64,000 nucleotides of DNA from Rhodovulum marinum. GTDB lineage: Bacteria; Pseudomonadota; Alphaproteobacteria; Rhodobacterales; Rhodobacteraceae. A model generated the notes under the pieces. It searched no databases and was not told the origin of the DNA. It was given only the letters and a program-made list of their open reading frames with translations. The position numbers were made by a program, and so were the translations under genes. The number at the start of each line of letters is the position of its first letter. Positions within the stretch are counted from its first letter, which is position 1. Positions 2,136-15,898 of the stretch are shown here, in pieces. The DNA is taken from the NCBI RefSeq assembly GCF_004343075.1, contig NZ_SLXP01000001.1, forward strand, positions 302,474 to 366,473. The letters are read 5' to 3'.

Positions 2136-3557
2136 CTAGAGGATCGGGGCCATCAGGCGGGCCACGCGCGCCCCGTTCCGGCGCAGCGGGCCGCGCGTGT
2201 CGGCCAGCCGCGTCGTGTAGGCGTAGCCTTGCGCGAAATCCGCCTCGAGCATCGCCGCCACGGCGCGGGCGAAATCGGCGTCGAAGACCAGCGCGGTGGC
2301 CTCGAAATTCAGCCGGCAGGAGCGGTTGTCGAGATTCACCGTGCCGATCGAGGCGAAGGCCTCGTCCACCACCAGGGCCTTCTGGTGCATGAACCCGTCG
2401 GTATAGCGGAATATCTGCACGCCCGCGTTCAGCATCTCGTCGAAATAGGCGAAGGCGGCGAGCCAGACCCAGAGGTGGTCGCGCCTGTCGGCCATCAGGA
2501 TGCGCACGTCCACGCCGCGCAGCGCGGCCAGCGACAGCGCGGTCAGGATGTCGGTATCGGGGACGAAATAGGGCGAGGCGATCCAGATGCGGTCCTGCGC
2601 GGCGTGGATCGCGTTGCAGAAATAGAGGCTGCCGGTTTCCAGCACGTCCGCCGGCCCCGGCGCCACGATCAGCGCGTCCAGGTTGCCCGGCGCGGGGTCG
2701 GGGTCCCAGGCGAGGTTCAGCCGTTCCGCGGTGGCCCAGAACCAGTCCTCGACGAAGATCAGTTGCAACTGCGCCACCACCGGCCCCAAGAGCCGCAGAT
2801 GGGTATCGCGCCAGCGCCCGATGCGCGCGTCGCGCCCCATGTATTCGTCGCCCACGTTGTGGCCCCCCAGGAAACCCGCGGTGCCGTCGACGATGACGAT
2901 CTTGCGGTGGTTGCGGAAATTCACCTGGAAGCGGCTGTGCGGCTTGCGCAGCGAGTGGAAATCGGCGACGACCACGCCCGCCGCGCGCAGCTCGGACAGG
3001 TAGGCCTCGGGCAGCTTGTGGCTGCCGATGGCGTCGTAGAGCAGGCGCACGGTGCAGCCCGCCTGCGCGCGTTCGATCAGGCGGCGTTGCAGGGCACGGC
3101 CGGTGTCGTCGTCGCGCAGGATGTAGGTCTGCACCAGGACGTAGGACTCGGCCCGTTCGATCGCCTCGAAGATGGCGGCGAAGGTCCGGGGGCCGTCCAG
3201 CAGCAGGCGCGCGGTGTTGCCCGAGACCGCCGGCATCCCCGCGATCCGCTCGAACCCCGAAAGCGAGCGGCGCAGGCGCGGCGGCAGGCCCGCCCCCTCG
3301 GCGCGCCGGGCCGGGTCGAAATCGGGCAGCGTGGCGATCGAACTGCGCGCCGAACGCCGGGCGGTGACATAGCCCGGCAGGCGCGAGTGGCCGAGGAACA
3401 GGAAGATCGGCAGCGCGACATAGGGGGCGGCGACCAGGAACACCACCCAGCCGACCGCGCCCTGCGGTGTGCGCGCATTGCGGATCGCCCGGAACACCGC
3501 CCAGACCGTCGCGGCCTGAAACGCCAGCAGCAGCGCGGGAAGCACGACCTGAAGCAT
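2136..3557 (-). CDS. cls: Cardiolipin synthase (phospholipase D superfamily)
   Basis: Inner-membrane enzyme that condenses phosphatidylglycerol (or a CDP-DAG/PG pair) to cardiolipin. The 473-aa product starts at the ATG at 3557 (MLQVVLPALLLAFQ). The frame stays open upstream, but the extra residues are not membrane-like and would run into the next gene. Two N-terminal transmembrane segments are followed by two PLD catalytic motifs: NHRKIVIVDG and FMHQKALVVDE (HxKx4D type), each followed by the usual GG.N / GT.N context. Length fits the bacterial Cls family (about 480 aa). It lies 43 bp downstream of the endonuclease/phosphatase gene on the same strand. Confidence 0.92.
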   Translation of the reverse strand: MLQVVLPALLLAFQAATVWAVFRAIRNARTPQGAVGWVVFLVAAPYVALPIFLFLGHSRLPGYVTARRSARSSIATLPDFDPARRAEGAGLPPRLRRSLSGFERIAGMPAVSGNTARLLLDGPRTFAAIFEAIERAESYVLVQTYILRDDDTGRALQRRLIERAQAGCTVRLLYDAIGSHKLPEAYLSELRAAGVVVADFHSLRKPHSRFQVNFRNHRKIVIVDGTAGFLGGHNVGDEYMGRDARIGRWRDTHLRLLGPVVAQLQLIFVEDWFWATAERLNLAWDPDPAPGNLDALIVAPGPADVLETGSLYFCNAIHAAQDRIWIASPYFVPDTDILTALSLAALRGVDVRILMADRRDHLWVWLAAFAYFDEMLNAGVQIFRYTDGFMHQKALVVDEAFASIGTVNLDNRSCRLNFEATALVFDADFARAVAAMLEADFAQGYAYTTRLADTRGPLRRNGARVARLMAPIL

Positions 3558-3600
3558 GCCCCGATGCTGTGCCCTGCCCGGCCGAAAGGCAAGCGCGGGA

Positions 3601-4341
3601 TCAGGCGGCGGGGGCCATGTCCGCCCAGATCGGCAGGTGGTCGGAGGCGGCGCGGGCGCGCGGCGTCTCGTGCACCCCCGCCGCGCCCAGCGCCAGCCCG
3701 TGGCCATGGGCGATGCGGTCGAGCCCGGCGCGCGGGCGGCTGGCATGGAAGGTCTTGCCCGGCGCCACCACGCGGAAGCGGTCGGCCAGCGGCTCGAAGC
3801 CGCGGGTTTCGGACCATTCGTTGAAGTCGCCCAGGATCACGGTGCGCGCGCTTTCGGTTTCGCAGAACCGCGCGCGGATCGTGTGCAACTGGCGCAACCG
3901 CCAGCGCCGCATCAGGGCCAGGTGAACGCCCACCACGGTGATCGCGCCCGGCCCCTCGCCCAGGCGCACCAGCACCGCGCCGCGGGGTTCCAGACCGGGC
4001 AGGGCCAGCCGTTCGGCGGCGGTGACCGCCAGCCCCCGGCGCACCAGCACCGCGTTGCCGTGCCAGCCCAGGCTGACCGCGTTGGGCGCCAGGTCGGCCA
4101 CGGTGAAATCGGTTTCGCGCGCGATCATCTCGCGCGGCAGCGCGGCAGGCCGCGCACCCAGGCGCTTGTCGGCCTCTTGCAGGACGACCGCGTCGGCGCC
4201 GATCTCGTTTATGACGTCCAGCGTGCGGCCCGCGTCGCGTTTCCAGTCCAGCCCGACCGCCTTGCGGATGTTGTAGCTGGCCAGCCGGACGGGGCGCCCC
4301 GGGACAAGGGGGGCGGCACTTGCGGGCGGGCGGGTGGACAC
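3601..4341 (-). CDS. Endonuclease/exonuclease/phosphatase (EEP) family protein
   Basis: Metal-dependent phosphodiesterase fold (246 aa). Motifs in order: LASYNIRKAVG (strand 1), VLQEAD (catalytic Glu), GVHLALMRRW, GDFNEW (Asp/Asn pair) and SDHLPIWAD (catalytic Asp-His). The GTG start at 4341 is chosen because a perfect GGAGGT sits 9 nt upstream. A longer frame to 4443 lacks such a site and its extra residues look non-conserved. Similar EEP proteins often sit beside cardiolipin synthase genes in Rhodobacterales (recollection). The substrate, DNA or a phospholipid/phosphodiester, cannot be told from sequence. No signal peptide is visible. Confidence 0.85.
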   Translation of the reverse strand: MSTRPPASAAPLVPGRPVRLASYNIRKAVGLDWKRDAGRTLDVINEIGADAVVLQEADKRLGARPAALPREMIARETDFTVADLAPNAVSLGWHGNAVLVRRGLAVTAAERLALPGLEPRGAVLVRLGEGPGAITVVGVHLALMRRWRLRQLHTIRARFCETESARTVILGDFNEWSETRGFEPLADRFRVVAPGKTFHASRPRAGLDRIAHGHGLALGAAGVHETPRARAASDHLPIWADMAPAA

Positions 4342-4734
4342 GGGCGTCGGACCTCCGGTCGGAAACGGGCGCCGCACGGCGCGGTTTCGGGGCAGATAGG
4401 AACGCAAGGCGCGCGGAACAACCGCCAGAGGGTCCCCGCGCATCTGCGGGCAGGCCGCAGGGCGCGGGGAAAATGCGTCGGATTTTCGAAGAACTCGTCC
4501 CGCCAGTGCCCGGTCCGCGTTGCCAAAACCGCACCCTTCGGGCGATTCCGGGGTCTTTGACCGCAGCCGAACCCCGCAATCCCGGCGCCGTGCCGCGTTT
4601 TCGCCGCAATCGGCGCCGTGGGGGCCATTTTTTGGTCCAGCTTATCGGGAACAGTCGGACCTGTATCCGTGGATGTCAGGTGCGTCCGGCCTCCCCGCCG
4701 GGCCACCGCTCAATCGCGCAACCAGATCGCCAAG
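4342..4734. other. 393-bp divergent intergenic region, no gene seen
   Basis: Lies between the leftward EEP gene and the rightward kinase operon and must hold the promoters of both. It carries the GGAGGT ribosome site of the EEP gene (4351-4356) and an AT-richer patch near 4625-4650. I could not pick out convincing -35/-10 pairs. Short open frames here have no family features. Confidence 0.5.
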
Positions 4735-6042
4735 ATGAACGCAGCGCCCGACATAAAGAATCACCTGCCGGCCGACGGCCCCGTGGAGGAGTTGCAGCCC
4801 GGCACCGAGCTTTTGCATGGCCAGTACCGGATCGAACGGTTCCTGAATGCCGGCGGATTCGGCCTGACCTACCTGGCCCGGGACAGCCTGGACCGGACCG
4901 TGGTCATCAAGGAATGCTTTCCCGAATCGCTTTGCCTGCGCACCGGGCAGGACGTGCATGCCCGTTCACGCAGCTACAGCCAGGAATTCCACTCGATCGT
5001 CCAGCTTTTCATCGACGAGGCGCACCGGCTGGCACGGCTGAGCCATCCCGGCATCGTGGGCGTCCACCAGGTGTTTTCCGACAACACCACCGCCTACATG
5101 GCGCTGGACTATATCCAGGGCAAGACGCTGCTCGAGATCATCGAGGACCCGCGCGAGACACCGTCGCCCGCCGCGATCCGCGACATGCTGGTCAAGGTGC
5201 TGGACGCGGTGGCCTTCATCCATGATCAAAGCCTGCTGCATCGCGACATCTCGCCCGACAACATCATCATCGGGCTGGACGGCAACCCGGTGCTGATCGA
5301 TTTCGGCGCGGCGCGCGAACGGGCCACCCGCAACAGCCGCGTCCTGTCGCGGCTGCAGGTGGTCAAGGACGGCTATTCGCCCCAGGAATTCTATGTCGCC
5401 GGAATCAAGCAGGGGCCGCCCAGCGACCTGTATGCGCTGGCGGCGACCTTCCATCACCTGATCACCGGCGCGGCGCCGCCCAACAGCCAGCAGCGCATGG
5501 CCGCGCTGGCCGCGAACGAACCAGACCCCTGTCAGCCGCTTCAGGGACGGGTCCCGGGCTATGACCCCGCGTTCCTGGCGGCAATCGACACGGCGCTGAA
5601 CGTCGTGCCGCGGGAACGGCCGCAATCGGCCCATGACTGGCTGGCGATGATCGAAACCGGCCCGCGCGAGGCCGCGATGGGCGAGGTGCTGCCGATCGAC
5701 GACGACACGCGGATGTCGATCGCGCGCCTGGTCGAGGAGACCAACCGCGCCGTGATGGAGGCGCGCCAGCGCTCCAAGCAGGAGGCCCGCGCCCGGCCGC
5801 CCGAGCCCCCGAAACCGCCCGAGCGCAAGCCCGCCTTTGCCTGGCGCTCGCTTTATGACGACGACGAGGACGACCTTTCGGCGGCGGAGCCCCCCCCACC
5901 CGCCGAGGCCGCCCCGCAACCCTCCCCCCCGGACGAGGAAACGATTTGCCCGCGCCGGCCGCGCCTGCGCCAGCGCCGGCCGCGGCCCGGCCGGGGCGGG
6001 CTGTTCGCCGGGCTCGCCCGGCGTTTCATCGCGCGCACGTAA
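4735..6042 (+). CDS. Hanks-type serine/threonine protein kinase
   Basis: Soluble protein kinase (435 aa). The kinase domain covers about residues 30-320: glycine loop NAGGFGLTY (39-46), catalytic Lys59 in VVIKE, catalytic loop HRDISPDN (169-176) and DFG at 189-191. No transmembrane segment or extracellular sensor is seen. The C-terminal 110 residues are Pro/Glu-rich and end in a basic stretch with GLFAGLARRF, which could bind a membrane or partner. The ATG at 4735 starts just before conserved sequence; the open frame extends further upstream without family features. It heads a co-directional block with an FHA reader and a PP2C phosphatase, the usual partners of such kinases. No type VI secretion genes are nearby. 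Confidence 0.9.
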   Translation: MNAAPDIKNHLPADGPVEELQPGTELLHGQYRIERFLNAGGFGLTYLARDSLDRTVVIKECFPESLCLRTGQDVHARSRSYSQEFHSIVQLFIDEAHRLARLSHPGIVGVHQVFSDNTTAYMALDYIQGKTLLEIIEDPRETPSPAAIRDMLVKVLDAVAFIHDQSLLHRDISPDNIIIGLDGNPVLIDFGAARERATRNSRVLSRLQVVKDGYSPQEFYVAGIKQGPPSDLYALAATFHHLITGAAPPNSQQRMAALAANEPDPCQPLQGRVPGYDPAFLAAIDTALNVVPRERPQSAHDWLAMIETGPREAAMGEVLPIDDDTRMSIARLVEETNRAVMEARQRSKQEARARPPEPPKPPERKPAFAWRSLYDDDEDDLSAAEPPPPAEAAPQPSPPDEETICPRRPRLRQRRPRPGRGGLFAGLARRFIART

Positions 6043-6091
6043 CGAAATCCACCGCCCCCCCGCAGCAGGGTCCAGCACGGAAGACAGAGGC

Positions 6092-7102
6092 ATGAAGTTC
6101 CTGAGACGCAAGACCGGTGACAAGCCCGCCGGCGACGCATTCAACGACTATGTCGAACCGTTTCCGCCGTCGCGCAGGGCCGCCGCCGCGCCCATGCCCG
6201 CCGCGGACCCCGCCCACGCGCCCGCGGACCCGGGCGACCGGGTGGAAGAGTTCGACATGGCCTTCGAAGACGGCTTCGACGACGCCCCGGAGATGGAGGA
6301 CGACATGGACCACGGCCACGACCGGACCTTCTGGGCAACGCGGGGCACCGCGTTTCCGTCCGACGCGGAGACCGCCGAGGCGGCCGCGCGCCCGGTCCTG
6401 TTCCCCGGCGAGGCGGCACCCGCCGCGCGGCCGCAGCGCCTCGGCGCCGCCGAGGCCGCAGACCGCCGCACGGCGCTGCTCAACGGCTATCGCCCCGACG
6501 CGGACCCCGCTGCGCCCCCTGCCGCGCCCTCTGCCGCGCCGGCCATGGCCGCCGCGCCCGACCCCGAACCCGCCGATCTTTCGGCCTTCGAGGCGCCGCC
6601 GCCCGCGGCCGGCCGGTCTGGCGCCCGCGCGGGCCGCGCCAAGACCCGTCTTCTGGGGTTCGGCCAGCCGGCCGACGCGGCGGCCGATCCCTTTGCCCGC
6701 GACGAGCCCGCGATGCCGGCCGAACCGTCCCGCCCCGATTTCCCGGTCGGCTGGCTGGTGGTGGTCGAGGGCCCCGGGCGTGGTGCGCATTTCACCCTGT
6801 TCAACGGGGTGTCCCAGATCGGCCGCGGCGCGGACCAGACCGTGCGGCTGGATTTCGGCGACACGTCCATTTCGCGCTCGGGCCATGCGCTGCTGGCCTT
6901 TGACGACGAGCAGGGCAAGTTCTTCCTCGGCTCGGGCGGCAAGGTGAACATCGTGCGGCTGAACGGCCAGCCCCTGCTGAGCACCGAAGAGCTTTCGAAC
7001 GACGACAGGATCCGCATCGGCGAAACGACCCTGCACTTCGTCGCCTTCTGCGGCCCCGATTTCACCTGGTCGGCGGATCGGCCCGATGCCGACGGGCGCT
7101 GA
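6092..7102 (+). CDS. FHA-domain protein
   Basis: Phosphothreonine-reading adaptor (336 aa). The first 215 residues are low-complexity, Ala/Pro- and acid-rich, with a basic N-terminus (MKFLRRKTGDK). The C-terminal 110 residues form an FHA domain: QIGRGADQTV (the G-R pair), SISRSGHA (Ser/Arg/His positions) and a later RLNGQPL loop, all expected for pThr binding. KTRLLGFG just before the FHA domain is a plausible kinase target, because FHA proteins are often phosphorylated on such a Thr (inference). The start at 6092 has AGAGG upstream. It is 49 bp after the kinase and overlaps the phosphatase gene by 17 bp, so kinase, reader and phosphatase are probably co-translated. Confidence 0.88.
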   Translation: MKFLRRKTGDKPAGDAFNDYVEPFPPSRRAAAAPMPAADPAHAPADPGDRVEEFDMAFEDGFDDAPEMEDDMDHGHDRTFWATRGTAFPSDAETAEAAARPVLFPGEAAPAARPQRLGAAEAADRRTALLNGYRPDADPAAPPAAPSAAPAMAAAPDPEPADLSAFEAPPPAAGRSGARAGRAKTRLLGFGQPADAAADPFARDEPAMPAEPSRPDFPVGWLVVVEGPGRGAHFTLFNGVSQIGRGADQTVRLDFGDTSISRSGHALLAFDDEQGKFFLGSGGKVNIVRLNGQPLLSTEELSNDDRIRIGETTLHFVAFCGPDFTWSADRPDADGR

Positions 7103-8042
7103 TCTGCGCCTGGACGCCGCGACCGGCATCGGCCAGGGCCGGCGCGAGCACCAGGAGGACGCGATCATCGCCGATTTCACCATCGGCGGCGAGATCGGCC
7201 TTGCGGTGCTGGGCGACGGCATGGGCGGGCATGCCGCCGGCGACGTGGCCAGCCGCATCGTCGTCACCGAGGTGTTCAGCGAGCTGAAGCTGCAAAGCGA
7301 CGATCCCGACCGGTTCGCGCGCCATGCACCCGGCATCCTGCGCGCCGCCGCGCGCGAGGCGAATGGCTGCATCGCCGACCATGTCCGCAGCCATGCCGAA
7401 ACCGGCGGGATGGGCACCACGCTGGTGGCGCTGGCCGTGGCGCGCGACCGGCTGTTCTGGGTCTCGGTCGGGGATTCGCCGCTGTTCCTGTTCCGCGACG
7501 GCCAGCTGCACCAGATCAACGAGGATCATTCGCTTGCCCCGCAGATCGACGGGATGGTGCGGATGGGGCTGTTATCGGCCGAAGAGGCGCGCACCCATCC
7601 CGACCGCAACTGCCTGACCTCGGCGCTGACCGGGGCCGAGATCGGCCAGATCGACTGTCCCGACCGGCCGGTCGACCTGGCGGTGGGCGACATCATCGTC
7701 GCCGCCAGCGACGGGCTGACCTTCATCGCGCGCGACCGGATCCGCGCGATCCTGTCCGAATATCGCCGCCGCACCAGCGCCGAGATCGCCAACGCGCTGT
7801 TTTCCGAACTGGAGGCGCTGGGCGATCCCGAACAGGACAATGTCTGTTTCACCGTGATCCGCGTGGTGGCCCGCGGCTGGACCCCCGGCGTCCAGCCGCG
7901 CCGCCCGGCCCAGCCCGCCCCGGCGGACCGCCCGCGCCCGCGCCCGGACCTGGCCGCCGCGAGGCAGCGCGCCGGGGCGCGGCGCTGGGCGATCCCCCTG
8001 CCGATCCGGGCCCTGTTCAACCTTGGGAAACGAGCACAATGA
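7086..8042 (+). CDS. PP2C-type protein serine/threonine phosphatase
   Basis: Metal-dependent phosphatase (318 aa) expected to reverse the neighbouring kinase. Motifs: GRREHQEDA (metal Asp), LGDGMGGHAAGDVAS, GGMGTTLVALAV, WVSVGDSPLFLF, AASDGLT and the terminal DN pair in PEQDNVCF. Together these cover the PP2C catalytic core, about residues 8-255. The tail is Pro/Arg-rich and ends in a short amphipathic-looking segment (PIRALFNLGK). It overlaps the FHA gene by 17 bp, and its stop overlaps the next start (ATGA at 8039-8042), pointing to translational coupling. Confidence 0.9.
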   Translation: MPTGADLRLDAATGIGQGRREHQEDAIIADFTIGGEIGLAVLGDGMGGHAAGDVASRIVVTEVFSELKLQSDDPDRFARHAPGILRAAAREANGCIADHVRSHAETGGMGTTLVALAVARDRLFWVSVGDSPLFLFRDGQLHQINEDHSLAPQIDGMVRMGLLSAEEARTHPDRNCLTSALTGAEIGQIDCPDRPVDLAVGDIIVAASDGLTFIARDRIRAILSEYRRRTSAEIANALFSELEALGDPEQDNVCFTVIRVVARGWTPGVQPRRPAQPAPADRPRPRPDLAAARQRAGARRWAIPLPIRALFNLGKRAQ

Positions 8043-9181
8043 ACGCAATCCTGGAACGGGACACGCTTGCGCAGCTTCACCGGGTGCTGGGCGCCGCCCA
8101 CCTGCCCGACAAGGCCCGCGCCGATGGCCAACGCCTGCTCGAACGGCTGCGGGCGCCGGTGCGTCTGGTCGTGGCCGGCCCCGCCGGCAGCGGCAAGACG
8201 CACCTGGCGGGCCTGTTGGCCGGCTGCCCGCCGCGCCCTGCCGCCCCGGGGCCGTCCGGCGATGCGCCCGAAACCCCGTCGCTGGTGTTCCGCAACCTCG
8301 TCGTGATCGAATACGCCCTGCCCGCACCCGGCAGCGGAATCTGCGGCGCGGTCGGCCTCGAGGTGACCTCGCCCGATATCATCCTGTGGTGCACCCAGGG
8401 CTTTACCCATGACGAGGCGCAGGTCTGGGCGCGGGTGCCCGACAACCTGAAGGACCACGCGTTCCTCGTGCTGACCAAGGCCGACGAGTTGCTGCGGCTG
8501 GGCGTGCTGCAGGACCGGCTGGACGATCTTTGCGAGGTGGTCGAGACCGAGTTCCACAGCCTTCTCCCCATCGCGACGCGCCAGGCCATGGCCGCGCGCG
8601 ACGGCGCGCGCATCACCGACCCCGCGCTGCACGGGCGCAGCGGGGCGGGCGCGCTGTTCGAGGCGCTGGGCCGGATGATCGAACAGGGCCGAAGCGCCGA
8701 CCTGGACGCGGCGCAGCTGTTCGTGCGGCGCTATGGCGGCGCGCTTGCCGCGGCGGGGTCGCCCCCGCCCGCGCCGGTCTTCGCCGACAGCGCCCCGGCC
8801 ATGCCAGTCCCGCCCGCCGCCCCCGCGCCGATGGCCGCCGCCGCGCCCCCCGCGCCCCGGCCGGCCTGCCGCGACACCGAGATCTCGGCCAGGGCGCTGC
8901 GCCTGCTGGACGATCTGCGCGACGATTTCCCCGACGAGATCGGCCCCGACGACCCGGCCGAGATCTCGGCCCTGCTGGGGCTGTGCGCACGCACGGCCGA
9001 GGCGCTGGACGAGATGGTGACCGGGGCGCCCGGGGTTTCGGACGACCTGTCCGAGGACGTGATGGAAGCCAACGAGACCATGGTCTTGCTGACGCTGGAG
9101 GATGACGAGAACGCCGCCGCCGATGCCGTCACCCTGTTGTTGCAGCTGCGCCGCGGTTTCGAGACGCGGCTTGCCGCCTGA
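8039..9181 (+). CDS. Degenerate P-loop GTPase-like protein
   Basis: 380 aa. The N-terminal G-like domain (about 40-190) has an intact P-loop GPAGSGKT (47-54) and a TKAD base-recognition motif (146-149). The DxxG switch II motif is absent; the aligned stretch reads VIEYALPAPG. A segment with LWCTQGF, then DEAQVW and LVLTKADEL, lines up with the same region of the intact GTPase at 11434 (IWCTHAT, SEAAVW, LLLTRCDKL), so the two look paralogous. A Pro/Ala linker (240-285) leads to a C-terminal helical, acidic domain (about 290-380) of unknown family. It is translationally coupled to the PP2C gene. Hydrolysis is doubtful; a regulatory or nucleotide-binding role is inferred. Confidence 0.7.
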   Translation: MNAILERDTLAQLHRVLGAAHLPDKARADGQRLLERLRAPVRLVVAGPAGSGKTHLAGLLAGCPPRPAAPGPSGDAPETPSLVFRNLVVIEYALPAPGSGICGAVGLEVTSPDIILWCTQGFTHDEAQVWARVPDNLKDHAFLVLTKADELLRLGVLQDRLDDLCEVVETEFHSLLPIATRQAMAARDGARITDPALHGRSGAGALFEALGRMIEQGRSADLDAAQLFVRRYGGALAAAGSPPPAPVFADSAPAMPVPPAAPAPMAAAAPPAPRPACRDTEISARALRLLDDLRDDFPDEIGPDDPAEISALLGLCARTAEALDEMVTGAPGVSDDLSEDVMEANETMVLLTLEDDENAAADAVTLLLQLRRGFETRLAA

Positions 9182-9334
9182 CCGACCCCGCCGCCCAGGG
9201 AACGCCATGAGTCCGCCACGCTCAGGACATAGTCAGGGGAATAATTGTTTCGAAGGCCGCGACAAATCTGGCGGACGCGGCCGGCACCGGTCCGAAGCGG
9301 CCGGGTTCCACAGAACCAAAAGGGATGTCGCACC

Positions 9335-11407
9335 GTGACCTTGGACGATCGCGCAGCCACCGCCGTAGAGGCGGCCCGTCCCCGGACCGAGAACCCCGGG
9401 CTGATGAGCCTGGGCATGGATGGGTTCGCGGGATTCGTGAACCGGATGGACCAGATGCGCCGGGCGCTTGCCGACCTGACGGAACTGGGCGACGCGACCG
9501 TGGTCAAGGGGGCCGCGCGCCTGTCCGCGCAACTGGACCAGGTCGAACCCTCGATCACCTTCATCGGCCAGGTCAAGGCGGGCAAGACATCCCTGATCAA
9601 CGCGATGGCGGGCTGGCCGGGGCTGTTGCCCGCGGACGTGAACCCCTGGACCTCGGTGGTCACCTCGATCCACCTTTCGCCGTCCTGGGCGACCGCGGCG
9701 GCGGGGGCCAATTTCCGCTTTTTCGACCCGCAGGAATGGGACCGGCTGGTCGAAAAGGGCGGCCGCATGGGGGAACTCGCCAGCCGCGCCGGCGCCGAGG
9801 AGGAGCTGGAAAAGGTGCGCCGCCAGGTCGAGCGGATGCGCGAGAAATCCAAGGGCCGGCTGGGCCGCCGGTTCGAGTTGCTGCTGGGCCAGGAACACCG
9901 CTACGGCACCTTCGACGAGGCCATGGTGGAACGCTATGTCTGCCTCGGCGACGATTTCGAGGATGACGAGGGCGAACCCTTCGACATGCGCGGGCGTTTC
10001 GCAGACATCACGAAATCCGCCGACCTGATGGTCGATCATGCCAACGTGCCGTTCAAGCTGTGCCTGCGCGACACGCCGGGCGTCAACGACACCTTCCTGA
10101 TGCGCGAACAGATCACCATCGGCGCGATCCGCGACAGCCGGCTGTGCGTGCTGGTGCTGTCGGCGCACCAGGCGCTGTCGACGGTGGACATGGCGTTGAT
10201 CCGGCTGATCTCGGCGGTCAAGGCGCGCGAGGTGGTGATCTTCGTCAACCGCATCGACGAGCTGTCCGACCCCGCGGCGCAGGTCGCCGAGATCCGCGAG
10301 TCGATCCGCGCCACGCTTCGGAAACACGAGGGCCCGGCCGAGGCGCCGATCCTGTTCGGCAGCGCGGTCTGGGGCCAGCATGCGTTGCAGGGCACGCTGG
10401 CGCAGATGTCCGAGGACAGCCGCGCCGCGCTGGACGCGCTGGCCCGGCATGACGGGCTGGACGGTGGCGCCGCGGCGGCGACGCCGGAAGATGTCTGGAC
10501 GGCCTCGGGTATTCCCGCGCTTTACCGCGCGCTGGGCGAACGCGTCGCCGAGGGCATCGGCGGCGAGGCGATCGACCGGATCGCGCGCAGCGTCGGCAAC
10601 CTGGCCCGCGGCGTGACGGCGGCGCAGCGGTCGATCGGGCTGGCGGTCGCGGACGGGCAGGCGGTGCATCTGGATATCCCGCGCCTGGCCCGCGAGCTGG
10701 ACGCGATCGAGGCGCGCGCGACGCTGGCGCTGGAAACCGCCTATGACGCCCAGCGCCAGGCGTTCTGCGTGCGCCTGGACCGGTCGCATCACAATTTCCT
10801 GGACCGCGCCACCGCGGCGCTGATCGAGCACCTGGAAAAATACGGCGAGGGCACGGTCTGGTCCTATGAACCGACCGGGCTGCGCCTGCTGTTGCGCTCG
10901 GCCTGCCAGGTCTTCGGCAAGCGCATCCAGGACGATGCCAGGGCGATCCTGGAAACCGCCGCGGCCGAGGTGTCGGCCACCTATCGGGCCGCCTTCGGGC
11001 TGGACCAGACGCTGGCGATCGAGCCGCCCGAACCGCCGCGGCTGAACCCGCCGGTCGCCATCGCCCAGACCATCGCGCTGGACGTCAAGGGCACCTGGTG
11101 GCGGCGCTGGTGGCTGCGCCGCAAGGGCTATCGCAGCTTCGCCAGCGAGTTCTACAAGATGATCAGCGCCGAGACCGCGCCGATCCTGGACGAGCTGTCC
11201 CACGACCATGCCGAGGCGATCCGCACCGACCTGATGCGCACGCTGGCCACCTTCCTGGAGGAGCAGCGCGAGATCGTGACCGCGCTGGCCGAAAAGGCCG
11301 CGCCCACACCCGACGACCTGGGCGCCGCGCTGGGCTATCAGGCGCGCGCCGAACGGCTGCGCCAGATCGAGGGCGTGGTCGCCACGATGCGCCAACAAGC
11401 GGCCTGA
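9335..11407 (+). CDS. Dynamin-like large GTPase
   Basis: 690-aa protein with an N-terminal helical lead, then a GTPase domain: G1 FIGQVKAGKTS (P-loop 78-85), G3 DTPG (246-249) and G4 NRID (305-308). About 350 residues of mostly helical sequence follow. This size and layout match bacterial dynamin-like proteins, which assemble on membranes. A basic patch WWRRWWLRRKGYR near residues 588-600 could be a membrane-contact paddle (inference). The GTG start at 9335 has AAGGGA upstream; the ATG at 9404 is an alternative. A 153-bp gap separates it from the previous gene, so an internal promoter is possible. It is followed 26 bp later by another GTPase gene. Confidence 0.8.
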   Translation: MTLDDRAATAVEAARPRTENPGLMSLGMDGFAGFVNRMDQMRRALADLTELGDATVVKGAARLSAQLDQVEPSITFIGQVKAGKTSLINAMAGWPGLLPADVNPWTSVVTSIHLSPSWATAAAGANFRFFDPQEWDRLVEKGGRMGELASRAGAEEELEKVRRQVERMREKSKGRLGRRFELLLGQEHRYGTFDEAMVERYVCLGDDFEDDEGEPFDMRGRFADITKSADLMVDHANVPFKLCLRDTPGVNDTFLMREQITIGAIRDSRLCVLVLSAHQALSTVDMALIRLISAVKAREVVIFVNRIDELSDPAAQVAEIRESIRATLRKHEGPAEAPILFGSAVWGQHALQGTLAQMSEDSRAALDALARHDGLDGGAAAATPEDVWTASGIPALYRALGERVAEGIGGEAIDRIARSVGNLARGVTAAQRSIGLAVADGQAVHLDIPRLARELDAIEARATLALETAYDAQRQAFCVRLDRSHHNFLDRATAALIEHLEKYGEGTVWSYEPTGLRLLLRSACQVFGKRIQDDARAILETAAAEVSATYRAAFGLDQTLAIEPPEPPRLNPPVAIAQTIALDVKGTWWRRWWLRRKGYRSFASEFYKMISAETAPILDELSHDHAEAIRTDLMRTLATFLEEQREIVTALAEKAAPTPDDLGAALGYQARAERLRQIEGVVATMRQQAA

Positions 11408-11433
11408 CCCAGGGTTACCGGAGGCTGAAGACG

Positions 11434-12390
11434 ATGACCGAAGGCTATCACGACGACTTTCCCCGGTTCGACGAGGGTTTTGAGGCCCTGGACGAGGTGC
11501 CCGCCCCCGCGCCCGACCCCGCGCCCACCCCGGCCCCGGCCGCGAAAAAGCCCTGCATCGCGCTGATGGGCGAGTTCAGCGCGGGCAAATCCACGTTGTC
11601 GAACCTGCTGATCGGGCAAAGCCCCCTGCCGGTGAAGGTGACGGCCACGCAACTGCCGCCGGTGCGCATTTCCCACGGCACCGGCCAAGCCTGGCGCGAG
11701 GACCTGGACGGCACGGTGCATCCGCTGGACATCGACGCGCTGTGCGAGGTCACGCCCGCCGAAACGCGGCTGGTACAGCTGTTCGTCGAGGCCGACCTGC
11801 TGACGATGTGCGACCTGATCGACATGCCCGGCATTTCCGACCCGAACATGGATCCAAGCGTCTGGGAAGGCGTCATCGGGCAGGCCGACGGGGTGATCTG
11901 GTGCACCCACGCCACCCAGGCCTGGCGCCAGAGCGAGGCCGCGGTCTGGGAAGAACTGTCGGACCGGCTGGCGCAATCCAGCATCCTGCTGCTGACCCGC
12001 TGCGACAAGCTGGTGACCGAGGAGGACCGCGCGCGGGTTCTCAAGCGCGTCAAGCGCGAGGCCGAGGACCAGTTCGCGGCCGTCTTCCCGATTTCGTTGA
12101 CCCAGGCGGTCGCGGGCCGCGACGACTGGGACCTGTGGACGGCCAGCGGTGCCGAGGCCTTCAGCCAGACCTTCATCGCGCTGTTGAACGGGCTGCGGGG
12201 CGCGCCCGGCGGCGAAGAACCGGTCCTGCCGCGCGCCTCTGACATCTCGCCCGCGCCGGCCGCCGCCCCGCCCGGCACCGGCGACATGGCCGAGGACGGC
12301 GTCCGCCCGCGCCGCGTCGCGGTGAACCCCAACCGCGGCCGGTCGGCCCGCCCGGGCGGGGATCGTGCAGCCGGGTTCGACGGGATCTGA
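11434..12390 (+). CDS. Small P-loop GTPase (dynamin/YfjP-like G domain)
   Basis: 318 aa. After a Pro-rich N-terminal 40 residues comes a complete G domain: G1 GEFSAGKS (46-53), candidate G2 Thr in VTATQLPP, G3 DMPG (130-133) and G4 TRCD (188-191). GEFSAGKS is the form seen in dynamin-superfamily GTPases. The last 90 residues are low-complexity and Arg-rich at the very end. The start at 11434 has GGAGG 9 nt upstream and is much better than the longer open frame, which overlaps the dynamin-like gene. Its G domain is the intact relative of the degenerate one at 8039. Partner and target are unknown. Confidence 0.8.
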   Translation: MTEGYHDDFPRFDEGFEALDEVPAPAPDPAPTPAPAAKKPCIALMGEFSAGKSTLSNLLIGQSPLPVKVTATQLPPVRISHGTGQAWREDLDGTVHPLDIDALCEVTPAETRLVQLFVEADLLTMCDLIDMPGISDPNMDPSVWEGVIGQADGVIWCTHATQAWRQSEAAVWEELSDRLAQSSILLLTRCDKLVTEEDRARVLKRVKREAEDQFAAVFPISLTQAVAGRDDWDLWTASGAEAFSQTFIALLNGLRGAPGGEEPVLPRASDISPAPAAAPPGTGDMAEDGVRPRRVAVNPNRGRSARPGGDRAAGFDGI

Positions 12391-12496
12391 CGCCCCGCGC
12401 GGGCGCCGCCCCCGGGCGGGATTTGCGGGGCCAGAACGCGCAGGTGGACGTTTTGCCTGTGGAAGGCGCCGAAATATCGACTAGACTGCGCGCAAG

Positions 12497-12916
12497 ATGG
12501 CGCTTTTTCAGCGAATGCAATCCCTGCGCAAATCGACGGCAGGCTGCCGGTCCCTGGCCTATGTGGACCTGTCGGCGCGGCTTGTGCTGTGCAGCGATTC
12601 CGACCTTCCGGCCCCGCCGCAGGAAGCGCTGGACGCGCTGTGCCTGCGCGCCGCCCGGCTTCTGGCCGGGCCGATCGCCGCGGCCGCGGGCGAGGCGCTG
12701 GCCCTCGACGACCCGCCGGACGAGGCGATCGCGCTGCACAATGGCCGGATCGAACTGTTCCTGCGCGCCCCCGGCGCACCGGACGAGGCGCTGTGTTGCG
12801 TGCTGGATGCGGCGGCCGATCCCGAACCCGCCCTGGCCGTGCTGCGCGCCGGGATCGGTGCGATCCTGCCCGACGACACGGCCGAGGCCGCTGTCGCAAC
12901 CGAACGGGGCCAGTGA
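12497..12916 (+). CDS. Small orphan protein, possibly roadblock/LC7-like
   Basis: 139-aa cytosolic protein with no family I recognise firmly. A strand-like AYVDLSARLVLCSDS near the N-terminus, a long helix, then RIELFLRAPG and CVLDAAADP and a final helix give an alternating pattern. That pattern and size resemble roadblock/LC7 proteins, which in bacteria act as partners of small GTPases (MglB type). Three GTPase genes upstream make this attractive, but it is inference from pattern only. The stop is 1 nt before the GTG start of the next gene. A 106-bp gap precedes it, so it may have its own promoter. Confidence 0.55.
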   Translation: MALFQRMQSLRKSTAGCRSLAYVDLSARLVLCSDSDLPAPPQEALDALCLRAARLLAGPIAAAAGEALALDDPPDEAIALHNGRIELFLRAPGAPDEALCCVLDAAADPEPALAVLRAGIGAILPDDTAEAAVATERGQ

Positions 12917-12917
12917 C

Positions 12918-13676
12918 GTGAGCGGTCTGGACAGGCTCAACAGCAAGCTGGCCAAGCTGAAGGGCGCGGATGACGACGCCGAACAGATCGTCACCGGCGC
13001 CACCGACGGCATCATCGCCGTGCTGCTGTCCGAAATCGAGGAAACGATCCTGCCGCGCGAAATGGTGCTGACCGACGAGGATGGCGCACGCTTCGTCTTG
13101 CTGGTCGCGGGGCGGCGGCTGTTGCACGTGGGCGAAACGGCCGCCCCCGGCCCCGACGAAGACGACGACGGCGACCCGTCCGAGCGGATCATCGCCGCCT
13201 TCAACGGCCCGTTCCGCGCCTTTCTCGATCGCGCGCGCGAACTCGGCATCGATGCGCACCGGCCGCATGACCGGATCGACCCGACCCGGATCGGCTGTTC
13301 GGTCGAAACGCTGGCCCAGGCGGTGGCGGGCGGCCCGACCGCCGCGCCCGCGGCCGACCCGGTCACCGAGGCGCTGGCGCTGGCCGCGGCGGGCCTGCGC
13401 CTGGCCGGCGGCGAGATCGTGGCGCGCAGCGGCGATGCGGCGCTCCTCGACCGGCTGGAAGGGTTCTCGGCGGCGGCCACCGGGCTGTCCCGCGTCACCG
13501 GCGAGGATGCGGCCAGCCCGGTCGGCACGATTATCGGCACCCCCGACCCCCGGGGCCTGCTGCTTGCACGGGTCGCGTTCCGCGGCGAGGCCGCGCTGGT
13601 GCTGGCCCCCGCCACGGCGCGCCCGGCCCTGTTGGCGCTGTGCCGCCGGCCAAGCCCCGCGGCGGCGCCCGCCTGA
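12918..13676 (+). CDS. Orphan protein paired with the preceding gene
   Basis: 252-aa cytosolic protein of unrecognised family. A GTG start (MSGLDRLNSKLAKLKG) follows the previous stop by 1 nt, so translation is probably coupled. Residues 20-110 look like one compact alpha/beta unit with an acidic insert (DEDDDGD). A second unit from about 150 to the end (LALAAAGLRLAGGEIVARSG, then ARVAFRGEAALVLAP) repeats a similar strand-helix rhythm to the 12497 product. No catalytic motif, signal peptide or membrane segment is seen. It is the last gene of the kinase/GTPase block; the cobalamin riboswitch follows. Confidence 0.6.
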   Translation: MSGLDRLNSKLAKLKGADDDAEQIVTGATDGIIAVLLSEIEETILPREMVLTDEDGARFVLLVAGRRLLHVGETAAPGPDEDDDGDPSERIIAAFNGPFRAFLDRARELGIDAHRPHDRIDPTRIGCSVETLAQAVAGGPTAAPAADPVTEALALAAAGLRLAGGEIVARSGDAALLDRLEGFSAAATGLSRVTGEDAASPVGTIIGTPDPRGLLLARVAFRGEAALVLAPATARPALLALCRRPSPAAAPA

Positions 13677-13717: not shown

Positions 13718-13746
13718 TTGACACCCCGCCACCCGGGGACTAGGCG
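13718..13746 (+). promoter_or_regulatory. Predicted sigma70-type promoter of the cobalamin riboswitch
   Basis: TTGACA at 13718-13723, a 17-nt spacer and TAGGCG at 13741-13746. The -35 is consensus and the -10 is weak. The implied transcript start (about 13753) falls right at the start of the riboswitch. Confidence 0.55.
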
Positions 13747-13751
13747 AACGG

Positions 13752-13936
13752 GGTCTTGGTTCATCCGCACCGCCCCCGGGCGGCACGGGTGATGAAAAGG
13801 GAACACGGTGCGGCCCCCGGGCCAATGCCGTGGCTGCCCCCGCAACTGTCAGCGGAGAGCGCGGCTGCACACGCCACTGGGCCCATGCCCGGGAAGGCCA
13901 GCCAAGCGATGACCCGCGAGCCAGGAGACCTGCCAG
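13752..13936 (+). ncRNA. Cobalamin (B12) riboswitch
   Basis: Adenosylcobalamin-type aptamer. Conserved blocks appear in the right order: GGTGATGAAAAGGGAACACG, CAATGCCGTGGCTGCCCCCG followed by CAACTGTCAGCGG, CCACTGG, GGGAAGGC, GATGACCCGCGAG and the B12 box AGCCAGGAGACCTGCC near 13919-13934. It lies directly upstream of btuB. With ligand bound it should lower expression of the uptake and cobQ genes. Confidence 0.95.
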
Positions 13937-13985
13937 GACGATCACCCAGTCCGGCCGCGGGGCGTGGCGCGGGCGGCGGACATCT

Positions 13986-14095: not shown

Positions 14096-15898
14096 ATGAG
14101 TCGGAAAACAATCGCGCTGGGGCTGGGCTGGGTGGCGCTTGCCCCGCTGGCCGCACAGGCACAAGACAGCTTCCTTCTGGACGAGATCGTGGCCTCGGCG
14201 ACCCTGGTGCCGCTGGAGGTCAACCGCACCGGCGCCACGGTCGAAACGCTGAACGCCGACGAGATCGCCGCGGGCGGGCGCAGCGTCGGGCAGACGCTGT
14301 CGCTTTTGCCCGGCGTCTCGATCAGCGCGAATGGCGGGCTGGGCGGCTCGGCCACCTTGCGCCTGCGCGGTCTCGGCGGAAGCTATATCGGCGTGCGCAT
14401 CGACGGGATCGACATGGCCGACCCCTCCAGCACGCAGACCTCTTTCAACTTCGGCACGCTGGCCACCGGCCTGCCCGACCGCATCGAGGTGCTGAAGGGC
14501 GCGCAATCGGCGCTGTACGGCTCGAACGCCATCGCGGGGGTCGTCGATATCACCACCTGGCGGCCCGATGCGCAGGGCTTCTCGGGGCAGGCCAGCGTCG
14601 AGGCCGGCAGCCATGGCAGCGGGTCGGCGACGGTCAGCCTGGGCCAGCGCGGCGAACGCGGCGAGGTCGCGCTGACCTTTTCGCGGATCACGACCGACGG
14701 CGAGTCGGCGCGCAACACCGACACCGAGGATGACGGGTTCGACCAGACCCAGCTTTCGGTCTTCGCGGCCTATGACGTGACCGAAACCCTCCGGCTGGGG
14801 GTCTCGGCGCTGTATTCCGACGGCACCTCGGAATTCGACCGCTCGACCGTCGATCCCAGCGGCGAGATCGACCAGACCCGCCGCGCCCTGCGCACCTTTG
14901 CCCAGTTCACGACCGGCCCGGTCGACCACGAACTGGCGCTGTCCTATTCCGAAACCGAGCGGTTCGACGAGGGCGGCTTTACCGAGCGGTTCCTCGGCGA
15001 ACGCACCAAGCTGGAGTATCTCGGCGAAACCGACCTGACCGCGGATCTGGGGCTGGCCTTCGGCGCCGACTGGACCGAGGAAAAGGCCACGCTTGACGGC
15101 ACGACCTACGACGCCGACAGCGCCGCGGCCTTCGGCGAATTGCAATACGCCGCGACCGCCGATCTCGACCTGGCGCTGTCGCTTCGCTACGACAGCTATT
15201 CCGATTTCGAGAACCAGCTGTCGGGGCGTGCGGCGATGGCCTGGCGGATCGAGGACGACCTGATCCTGCGTGCCGTCCTGGGCACCGGCTACCGGGCGCC
15301 CTCGCTTTACGAACGTTTCGGCCCCTATGGCAGCGCGACGCTTGAACCCGAAACCAGCCGCAGCGCCGAGATCGGCCTGGAAAAACGCTACGGCCCCGAC
15401 AGCTTTGCCAAGGCAACGCTGTTCTATTCCGAGATCGACGACCTGATCGACTATGATTTCGCGCTGAGCGCCTATGCCCAGGCGCCCGGCACGACGACCA
15501 CCAAGGGGGTCGAACTGTCCGGGCGCCATGCGCTGACCGACCGCGTCGCCGTGTTCGGCGCCTACACCTATACCGACGCGACCGGACCGGACGGCCGGCT
15601 GTTGCGGGTGCCGCGCCACGATCTCAGCCTGGGGCTCGAGGCGGGGCTGAGCGACCGGCTGAAGGCCGACCTGACCCTGCAGGCGGTGGCCGACCGGCGC
15701 GATACCAACACCTTCCCCAACCCGCCGTCGGGCATCGCCGACTACACCCTCGTGAATGCCGGGATGTCCTACGAGATGACCGACACCACCGAGGCCTACC
15801 TGCGCGTCGAGAACCTGTTCGACGAAAGCTACGAACCGGTGCGCGGCTATAACGGCGCGGGCCGCTCGGTCTTCGTGGGCCTGCGTGCGCGTTTCTAG
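14096..15898 (+). CDS. btuB: TonB-dependent cobalamin outer-membrane receptor BtuB
   Basis: 600-aa outer-membrane receptor for vitamin B12. The signal peptide ends near AQAQ, followed by a TonB box-like LLDEIVASAT. The plug domain spans about 40-150 (GQTLSLLPGVSI, LRLRGLGGSYIGVRIDG, RIEVLKGAQSALYGSNAIAG). The 22-strand barrel ends in the aromatic VGLRARF, the expected C-terminal outer-membrane signal. The ATG at 14096 is chosen because a signal peptide follows immediately. It sits under the cobalamin riboswitch and overlaps the btuF-like gene by 14 bp. Confidence 0.95.
   Translation: MSRKTIALGLGWVALAPLAAQAQDSFLLDEIVASATLVPLEVNRTGATVETLNADEIAAGGRSVGQTLSLLPGVSISANGGLGGSATLRLRGLGGSYIGVRIDGIDMADPSSTQTSFNFGTLATGLPDRIEVLKGAQSALYGSNAIAGVVDITTWRPDAQGFSGQASVEAGSHGSGSATVSLGQRGERGEVALTFSRITTDGESARNTDTEDDGFDQTQLSVFAAYDVTETLRLGVSALYSDGTSEFDRSTVDPSGEIDQTRRALRTFAQFTTGPVDHELALSYSETERFDEGGFTERFLGERTKLEYLGETDLTADLGLAFGADWTEEKATLDGTTYDADSAAAFGELQYAATADLDLALSLRYDSYSDFENQLSGRAAMAWRIEDDLILRAVLGTGYRAPSLYERFGPYGSATLEPETSRSAEIGLEKRYGPDSFAKATLFYSEIDDLIDYDFALSAYAQAPGTTTTKGVELSGRHALTDRVAVFGAYTYTDATGPDGRLLRVPRHDLSLGLEAGLSDRLKADLTLQAVADRRDTNTFPNPPSGIADYTLVNAGMSYEMTDTTEAYLRVENLFDESYEPVRGYNGAGRSVFVGLRARF

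Follow-up and report, generated by a model that had tools for sequence, protein, structure and literature searches.

The eight genes at positions 4735 to 13676 of the window (the whole 64,000-nucleotide stretch of a Rhodovulum marinum contig that was analyzed) were shown by gene order, boundaries, co-inheritance and motifs to be a real conserved unit. We propose, as a reading poised about evenly between right and wrong, that the block encodes one cytosolic system in which a Hanks-type kinase (KIN) and a PP2C phosphatase set a switch in an FHA protein and this switch in turn governs a dynamin-like protein (DYN) and a short dynamin-type GTPase (GTb), aided by orphan A (ORA, with orphan B, ORB) and a degenerate GTPase-like protein (GTa). 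The pairing of a phosphorylation switch with dynamin-like proteins appears to be undescribed so far.

Recurrence and co-inheritance of the eight-gene block

The preliminary description had reported eight same-strand genes with overlaps, and eight ORFs were confirmed in position and strand in this region of the Rhodovulum genome. The FHA and PP2C genes overlap by 17 bp and the PP2C and GTa genes by 4 bp. The start of DYN was set by alignment to a GTG at 9335 (the ORF as listed begins at 9245). The features are:

4735..6042, + strand: KIN, Hanks-type Ser/Thr kinase (435 aa; Pfam Pkinase 2e-26)
6092..7102, + strand: FHA protein (C-terminal FHA domain, Pfam FHA 5e-7)
6635..6661, + strand: RAKTRLLGF linker motif, proposed phospho-threonine site (Thr codon 6644-6646)
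7086..8042, + strand: PP2C-family Ser/Thr phosphatase (Pfam PP2C_2 3e-11)
8039..9181, + strand: GTa, degenerate P-loop GTPase-like protein (P-loop; without Pfam match above cut-off)
9335..11407, + strand: DYN, bacterial dynamin-like protein (Dynamin_N 1e-11)
11096..11113, + strand: WWRRWW tryptophan patch in DYN, candidate tip for membrane contact (WW..WW in 61/68)
11434..12390, + strand: GTb, short dynamin-type GTPase (Dynamin_N 8e-12)
12497..12916, + strand: ORA, predicted Roadblock/LC7 fold (AlphaFold2 and Foldseek)
12918..13676, + strand: ORB, conserved orphan (directly downstream of ORA)

All eight genes were found in the same order at 68 of 110 loci, comprising the window and 109 further loci (L002-L110); the latter were selected by a dynamin match, and therefore this fraction is no population rate. 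The other 42 loci lack the full block, and 18 of these are on short stretches close to the end of a contig or record. Among the 394 genomes sampled from the family, the dynamin was present in 101, a count that may be low as few candidates were scored per genome, and the full block in at least 59. From the 101 matching genomes, 97 were taken as 100 regions (L011-L110), two more are covered by other loci with agreeing coordinates (G000 by the window, G363 by L008), and G004 and G147 were left out. A stop falls within the dynamin match at two loci: L019, where the dynamin is split over two ORFs, was excluded from the 68, and L037 was kept. The GTa and GTb slots were assigned from position in the loci because the profiles of the two proteins drifted into one another.

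The block is carried on chromosome-sized contigs and on plasmids with variable flanks, the commonest flanking gene family accompanying at most 13 of the 68 full blocks by rough gene calls (GC3 rule). A search for P0008 on plasmids gave no match. When the FHA protein was searched for separately, it was found together with the dynamin in 81/86 genomes (expected 22.0; p ~4e-58). This search had no match in 20 of the 101 DYN-positive genomes, and therefore some dynamin pairs would work without the FHA switch; conversely, some kinase-FHA-PP2C trios have no nearby dynamin. Once RpoB had been corrected for, the distance matrices of the eight proteins from 23 genomes were mutually correlated (partial r 0.45-0.90; 0 of 200 permutations), and their correlation with RpoB itself was low (0.17). 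The patchy distribution, the plasmid copies and this weak agreement with RpoB suggest mobility. Taken together, the recurrence at 68 of 110 loci, the variable flanks, the co-occurrence of FHA protein and dynamin and the matrix correlation rule out chance gene neighbors. The block is a conserved unit in the genomes sampled, and neither of the outcomes that the preliminary description had named as contrary (genes scattered independently in relatives, or all within a known cluster) was seen, the genes being broken up into sub-modules in some genomes.

The same classes of enzymes and phospho-reader make up the PpkA-Fha-PppA trio of type VI secretion, and this shared composition, along with an overlap of dynamin and the type VI sheath protein VipB slightly above expectation (33 of 394 genomes compared to 25.9), could point to a displaced or orphan type VI regulator. 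This overlap was not significant (p = 0.065), no match to VipB (PF05943) was found in the whole window genome, and in six genomes, picked out by eye, dynamin and VipB share a contig, with ~60 kb between the closest pair among the matches listed. The FHA protein scored 9.5 bits against the TagH model, far below its cut-off of 120. A type VI regulator was rejected on these grounds and is, in our estimate, extremely improbable; unlike in the type VI trio, VipB is neither linked to the block nor required. The earlier claims that secretion genes are absent and that the unit is separate from type VI secretion hold for VipB, the one type VI gene searched.

The putative phospho-switch and the dynamin-type GTPases

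KIN has intact catalytic motifs (HRD[IL]..DN in 66 and DFG in all of the 68 full blocks) and a C-terminal tail of low complexity; a strongly hydrophobic 19-residue window was detected in 9 of the 68 kinases. The phosphatase matched the NCBIfam Stp1/IreP model at 1e-44, below the model cut-off. The FHA protein consists of an N-terminal low-complexity linker of ~200 residues and a C-terminal FHA domain that is closest to GarA/OdhI: it matched NCBIfam OdhI at 1.4e-7 (31 bits, below the cut-off of 200), and its eight PDB matches at E<=0.01 were GarA/Rv1827, OdhI and 2kkl (listed as Mb1858), which we take to be of the GarA family. Of the patterns used for phospho-Thr-binding residues of the FHA domain, GRG was found in 68/68 and two others of our own in 51/68 each. 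Within the otherwise variable linker lies the motif RVKTRLLGF, its Thr invariant in 68/68; conservation in the T, R and G columns of the 68 aligned proteins was 1.00, compared to a linker mean of 0.25. Among 20 FHA proteins at hand-picked places apart from dynamin or in dynamin-negative genomes (L111-L130), TxxLGF was absent in 9. Its invariance in the full blocks makes the linker Thr a likely, still putative, phospho-switch. In the actinobacterial GarA/OdhI the FHA domain is likewise preceded by a conserved Thr motif, there controlled by Ser/Thr kinases. By contrast, that motif is ETTS, the linker of the block protein is longer, and GarA/OdhI is tied to TCA-cycle enzymes whereas the block protein is tied to GTPase genes.

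DYN has the attributes of a bacterial dynamin-like protein, with G1, G3 and G4 motifs (P-loop, DTPG and NRxD, each in 68/68), a Dynamin_N match above cut-off, a long C-terminal region and PDB matches to the bacterial dynamin-like protein 2j68 (2e-5) and to 5owv_A (6e-4). The WWRRWW patch may form the membrane-contact tip of DYN. GTb matched 5owv_C (2e-10) and has little sequence outside its G domain, with 318 residues compared to 614 and 732 in the chains compared; its P-loop and DxPG were present in 68/68, and our own G4 pattern [NT][KR].DK was present in 47/68 and missing in 21/68. In GTa, the P-loop pattern was found in 48/68, [NT][KM].D in 37/68 and a loose D..G pattern, at any position, in 57/68, so that this protein looks degenerate in many relatives. 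A search of the window proteins against Pfam found no match above cut-off for GTa, ORA or ORB. With a P-loop and no Pfam match in GTa, the earlier count of three P-loop GTPase-like proteins was right, with one of them apparently degenerate. The name 'zeta toxin', given to GTa in one plasmid record, was rejected, the corresponding Pfam match being under the cut-off.

The entry 5owv is presumably the dynamin pair CjDLP1/2 of Campylobacter jejuni, which like DYN and GTb is encoded by two adjacent dynamin-family genes in one operon, and DYN and GTb hit its separate chains, A and C. Unlike that pair, the block has a short GTb with hardly more than a G domain, and it includes another six genes, for a kinase, an FHA protein, a PP2C, a pseudo-GTPase, a predicted Roadblock protein and an orphan. 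LeoABC is another bacterial dynamin in a small operon. To our knowledge, neither a phospho-signaling module nor a Roadblock protein is known for the LeoABC and IniA/IniC operons, and the on/off control of bacterial dynamins is largely open. According to passages of PMC6715688, IniA/IniC also represent bacterial dynamins within a small operon.

The orphan proteins ORA and ORB

MglB is a regulator of GTPases, and ORA is predicted from its modeled structure to have the same Roadblock/LC7 fold and is a candidate GTPase regulator. AlphaFold2 modeling on a six-sequence alignment gave a best pLDDT of 77.5, with the five models spanning 48 to 77.5. All 41 PDB matches of the best model by Foldseek at E<=0.001 were Roadblock-type, and its predicted order H-E-E-H-H-E-E-E-H, followed by a low-confidence last helix, contains the alpha-beta-beta-alpha-beta-beta-beta-alpha arrangement of Roadblock/LC7. 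Attempts to prove this identity by sequence failed, the profiles falling short of the Roadblock family. Robl_LC7 was absent among the 24 Pfam families matched by 91 ORA members, one member matching MAPKK1_Int (which we take to be a Roadblock-fold family) at 0.014, and PF03259 had no match in any of 20 genomes searched, including five that carry the block (damaged in one). Ten PDB matches were obtained with the ORA profile: seven phospholipase A2 chains (best 0.066), one complement regulator, Rv3364c (0.35), presumably a Roadblock protein, and CvnB5 (0.58). CvnB is described as a Roadblock protein in the relevant part of PMC4316618. A single Ruegeria ORA had no Roadblock match in the PDB.

These sequence results (no Pfam Roadblock match, phospholipases as top profile matches), as well as the single model of five above pLDDT 70, would fit an ORA that is not a Roadblock protein, with both orphans as unrelated passengers. 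Against this, besides the uniform Foldseek matches, stands the order GTPase-ORA-ORB, fixed in nearly all ORA-bearing loci: a GTPase gene lies immediately upstream of ORA in 90/93 cases and ORB immediately downstream in 91/93. We consider the passenger reading improbable. The ORB model reached a pLDDT of 62 and had no PDB fold match at E<=0.001; with this empty search and a negative ORA-ORB profile comparison, ORB was rejected as a second Roadblock protein. In all, 89 homologues of ORB and 68 of GTa were collected. Thus, of the earlier suggestion that both orphans regulate GTPases, the part on ORA is supported by the predicted MglB fold, and the ORB product is left without a usable fold match.

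As presented in parts of PMC4316618, the conservons (CvnA-D) of Streptomyces likewise combine a kinase, a Roadblock protein, a GTPase and an uncharacterized protein per operon. Conservons and MglA/MglB differ from the block in their histidine kinase (Hanks kinase/FHA/PP2C in the block), their Ras-type GTPase (dynamin-type in the block) and a Roadblock protein that in the block is undetectable by sequence. With Pkinase and Dynamin_N in place of a histidine kinase and a Ras-type GTPase, the block is not a conservon.

Proposed mechanism and possible roles

We infer each binding, phosphorylation, GTPase-control and membrane step of the following scheme, as well as its biological role. A signal would activate KIN, which would phosphorylate the invariant linker Thr in R-[VA]-K-T-R-L-L-G-F of the FHA protein. 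The FHA domain would bind this phospho-Thr in cis, in a manner like GarA/OdhI, or in trans, and binding would alter the hold of the FHA protein on its GTPase partner until PP2C resets the switch. ORA/ORB may bind GTb and tune its GTP cycle, as MglB does on MglA, GTb and DYN may assemble heterotypically on the membrane like the Campylobacter dynamin pair, and GTa may serve as a pseudo-GTPase adaptor. Somewhat short of an even balance, and thus tentatively, we regard the block as a previously undescribed transferable cassette, in which Hanks phosphorylation, sensed through the built-in Thr switch of an FHA protein, would act on a dynamin pair by way of a Roadblock regulator that sequence searches miss.

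Two more specific roles were considered. A mobile anti-phage defense, modeled on Leo-type dynamins or kinase-based defense, with infection sensed by the kinase and a protective or lethal action of the dynamin pair at the membrane, would agree with the signs of mobility and with PADLOC matches of the kinase to PD-T4-6 (4e-43) and of the dynamin to LeoA (5e-10). The PD-T4-6 match, however, represents a broad kinase class, and 47 PADLOC models were matched at 1e-10 by near neighbors of the block (140 scanned of 237 gene calls; raw counts), with each of the 25 of these models listed hit by one or two neighbors. Most of the listed neighbor models were GajB helicase. Location of the block in defense islands thus finds no clear support in the gene content around it, and we regard a defense role as unlikely. 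A kinase-switched system for membrane stress or envelope maintenance, similar to the mycobacterial IniA/IniC, is more plausible but still doubtful. Consistent with it are the conserved tryptophan patch of DYN, the lack of a constant flanking partner and the membrane fission activity of the bacterial dynamin IniA, as given in the portion of PMC6715688 on this protein, while the accessory nature of the cassette and a neighborhood without pointers to envelope stress speak against it. Such a role is compatible with the phospho-switched cytosolic system proposed above, from which it differs in biological role.

Next to its dynamin pair the block carries a kinase together with a phosphatase, an FHA reader whose linker Thr is a candidate switch residue, and ORA as a candidate GTPase regulator. 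The predicted fold of ORA suggests that bacteria with no match to the Pfam model (20 of 20 genomes) have Roadblock proteins nonetheless. If true, the proposed system would be a bacterial counterpart to the eukaryotic control of membrane GTPases by kinases and Roadblock proteins.

Organization and distribution of the eight-gene block

As the preliminary description had claimed, eight genes were found on one strand of the window, which lies on contig C1 of a 3.95 Mb genome in 38 contigs. In order, these encode a kinase, an FHA protein, a PP2C phosphatase, a degenerate P-loop GTPase-like protein (GTa, the 8039 product), a dynamin-like protein (DYN), a short dynamin-type protein (GTb) and orphans A and B (ORA and ORB, the 12497 and 12918 products).

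2136-3746, - strand: PLD/cardiolipin-synthase-type gene (by eye), divergent, 5' of the cassette
3601-4443, - strand: endonuclease/phosphatase-family-like ORF (by eye), divergent, 5' of the cassette
4735-13676, + strand: eight-gene block, ORFs separated by short gaps or overlapping
13740-13951: cobalamin riboswitch (RF00174, 118 bits), directly 3' of the cassette
ATG at 14096: TonB-receptor-like gene (by eye), 3' of the riboswitch

The next transcription unit probably starts at the riboswitch. Dynamin identity between the window and four Rhodovulum species was 85-87%; the window's PLD/cardiolipin-synthase-like gene recurs at all four Rhodovulum loci.

Dynamin was detected (E ≤ 1e-20) in 101 of the 394 genomes of the sampled family, which we take to be GTDB Rhodobacteraceae, and in 60/149 genomes of the order sample. 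Among 385 genomes sampled from the class and 200 from the phylum, matches numbered two and three, respectively, all within the same family. Iterated profiles were used to search 110 loci: the window, nine named loci and 100 regions (L011-L110) taken from 97 dynamin-positive genomes out of the 101. By this approach, the full block was found on one strand and in one order at 68 loci, 60 of them in L011-L110. Adding the window and G363 (represented by L008, R. euryhalinum) to the genomes behind these 60, no fewer than 59 of the 394 family genomes carry it. Three genomes carried two full blocks each: G371 (L056/L062), G266 (L031/L063) and G128 (L045/L067). The contigs that carry blocks L054 and L071 measure about 4.0 and 4.3 Mb. 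Among 72,556 plasmid records, dynamin was also present on 18, of which 12 were from Leisingera, five from Ruegeria and one from Rhodobacter. Of four plasmids inspected, two from Leisingera carried all eight genes in this order, the one from Ruegeria had them rearranged, and the Rhodobacter plasmid had four consecutive dynamin genes without other block genes, on a stretch that starts with base 1 of the record.

Of the 42 loci without a full block, 18 were on short stretches close to where a contig or record stops. The remainder included lone dynamin pairs and rearranged sets, such as one in which dynamin-GTPase-ORA-ORB precedes another dynamin pair and the kinase trio. Loci L005 and L100-L104 displayed dynamin-GTPase-dynamin-GTPase, with kinase, FHA, PP2C, ORA and ORB all absent from the stretch seen (truncated by the end of the record or contig in L005 and L100); this arrangement is possibly a stripped or ancestral form.

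Co-inheritance and sub-modules

The proposal that these genes form a conserved unit was borne out by the recurrence of the block and by an independent search for the FHA region (E ≤ 1e-15), which matched 86/394 genomes; FHA and dynamin occurred together in 81 genomes vs 22.0 expected, FHA alone in 5 and dynamin alone in 20. Clustering of 431 flanking gene calls from the 68 blocks placed the largest family (by eye ABC transporters, in mixed positions) at 13/68 loci, and three families were confined to the four Rhodovulum loci plus the window. Thus, the eight genes stay together while their surroundings vary. RpoB was sought in 30 dynamin-positive genomes and matched in 24, 23 of them with the full block. 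For these 23 genomes, the eight distance matrices correlated beyond RpoB (partial r 0.45-0.90; value reached in 0/200 permutations), and mean cassette distance correlated with RpoB at 0.17 (Spearman). Since the matrices agree with one another and hardly with RpoB, the data fit a block inherited as one unit, with either transfer or an old duplication.

Adjacency was counted at loci picked by dynamin or FHA. A GTPase gene was 5' of ORA in 90/93 cases and ORB 3' of it in 91/93; dynamin was followed by a match to the smaller-GTPase profiles in 127/129 cases and by a second dynamin match in the other two; and FHA was flanked by kinase before and PP2C after in 87/101. Several of 20 FHA places chosen for lying apart from dynamin (L111-L130) consisted of the kinase-FHA-PP2C trio only. 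With dynamin absent from the stretch, L118 had the trio and L117 kinase and FHA (PP2C uncalled), each with GTPase, ORA and ORB. The related trio apart from dynamin was observed in L111, L116, L118, L119, L126, L127 and L130, where the kinase is usually longer (373-1052 aa as called). Between kinase and FHA of L111, a short ORF was called over a stretch that is PDZ-like by eye. In L114 and L125 (two genomes), FHA, PP2C, kinase, a protein of about 430-460 aa and a second kinase were near one another.

Properties of the encoded proteins

Matches above Pfam cut-offs in the block were Pkinase, FHA, PP2C_2 and, in two proteins, Dynamin_N; domain searches found no family for ORA and ORB. Three P-loop GTPase-like proteins had been described, of which two carry Dynamin_N and GTa has a P-loop and no family. 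Across the 68 blocks, the P-loop and G3 motif were present in all DYN and GTb proteins and the G4 pattern in 68 DYN and 47 GTb; GTa kept its motifs in part (P-loop 48, G4 37, loose D..G pattern 57). In L003 (8637-9872), the GTa homologue is named 'zeta toxin family protein' in the public record; its Pfam Zeta_toxin match was under cut-off and spans the P-loop region only, and this identity was rejected.

DYN matched PDB 2j68, a bacterial dynamin-like protein presumably from Nostoc, and chain A of 5owv, which we take to be the CjDLP1/2 entry; GTb matched chain C. With just 318 residues, GTb is not a full dynamin. A WW..WW patch was found in 61/68 DYN proteins and a 19-residue window with hydropathy above 1.9 in 0/68, so that membrane contact of DYN, if any, would be peripheral. 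Such windows were found in 9/68 kinases, two ORA, two ORB and no other slot; a few kinases may thus be membrane-bound. According to a study of the Campylobacter jejuni pair, bacterial dynamin genes mostly occur as operon pairs, and formation of the tetramer sets off GTPase activity and lipid binding (PMC6104087); PMC4316618, PMC12321487 and PMC6715688 were also drawn on.

The FHA protein is mostly low-complexity linker, with R-x-K-T-R-L-L-G-F at a median of about 147 residues before the C-terminus. In 68 aligned proteins, conservation was 1.00 at motif columns T, R and G vs means of 0.25 for the linker and 0.75 for the FHA region. Among ORFs of all fetched loci, TxxLGF was found in 85/101 of the FHA family (one by look a chance match) and 16/19,465 others. 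At least four of the 16 FHA ORFs without it carry an isoleucine version (TRLIGF), and the rearranged Ruegeria type has RVKTTFLGF. Nine of the 16 are among the 20 FHA matches in L111-L130, so that the motif is a trait of the cassette type and is not shared by all relatives. Leucine at +3 of threonine fits FHA preferences, and the linker threonine may be phosphorylated.

An alignment of six sequences was the basis for modelling ORA (best pLDDT 77.5; others 48-67). All 41 PDB matches of the model (E ≤ 0.001) were Roadblock-type entries: MglC, MglB, MglA-MglB complexes, Roadblock/LC7 proteins, Ragulator/LAMTOR and MP1-p14 complexes (presumably including 5x6u, titled just as a human complex) and two chains of a GATOR1-Gtr-Lam complex. 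The Pfam Roadblock model matched 0/91 ORA members, and PF03259 matched 0/20 alphaproteobacterial genomes (five with the block) and 3/14 control genomes. ORB gave a low-confidence model with no PDB match.

Type VI secretion and possible role

The preliminary description had placed the module apart from secretion genes. This held for the type VI sheath protein VipB (PF05943), the sole secretion gene searched, which had no match in the window's genome; VipB was found in 9/16 genus genomes and 101/394 family genomes, and its overlap with dynamin was not significant (33 vs 25.9 expected, p 0.065, 394 genomes). Of 237 near-neighbour gene calls, 140 were scanned with PADLOC and Pfam: among the matches listed, each PADLOC model occurred in one or two of the 140, and response regulators were the commonest Pfam family (7/140). 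The neighbouring genes do not decide between roles. Titles and abstract openings in an open-access collection that lacks most subscription papers and every bioRxiv preprint yielded no description of the cassette. The block most likely encodes a dynamin pair that is phospho-gated and has a Roadblock regulator, a system that could serve in membrane maintenance, in vesicle formation or in defence.
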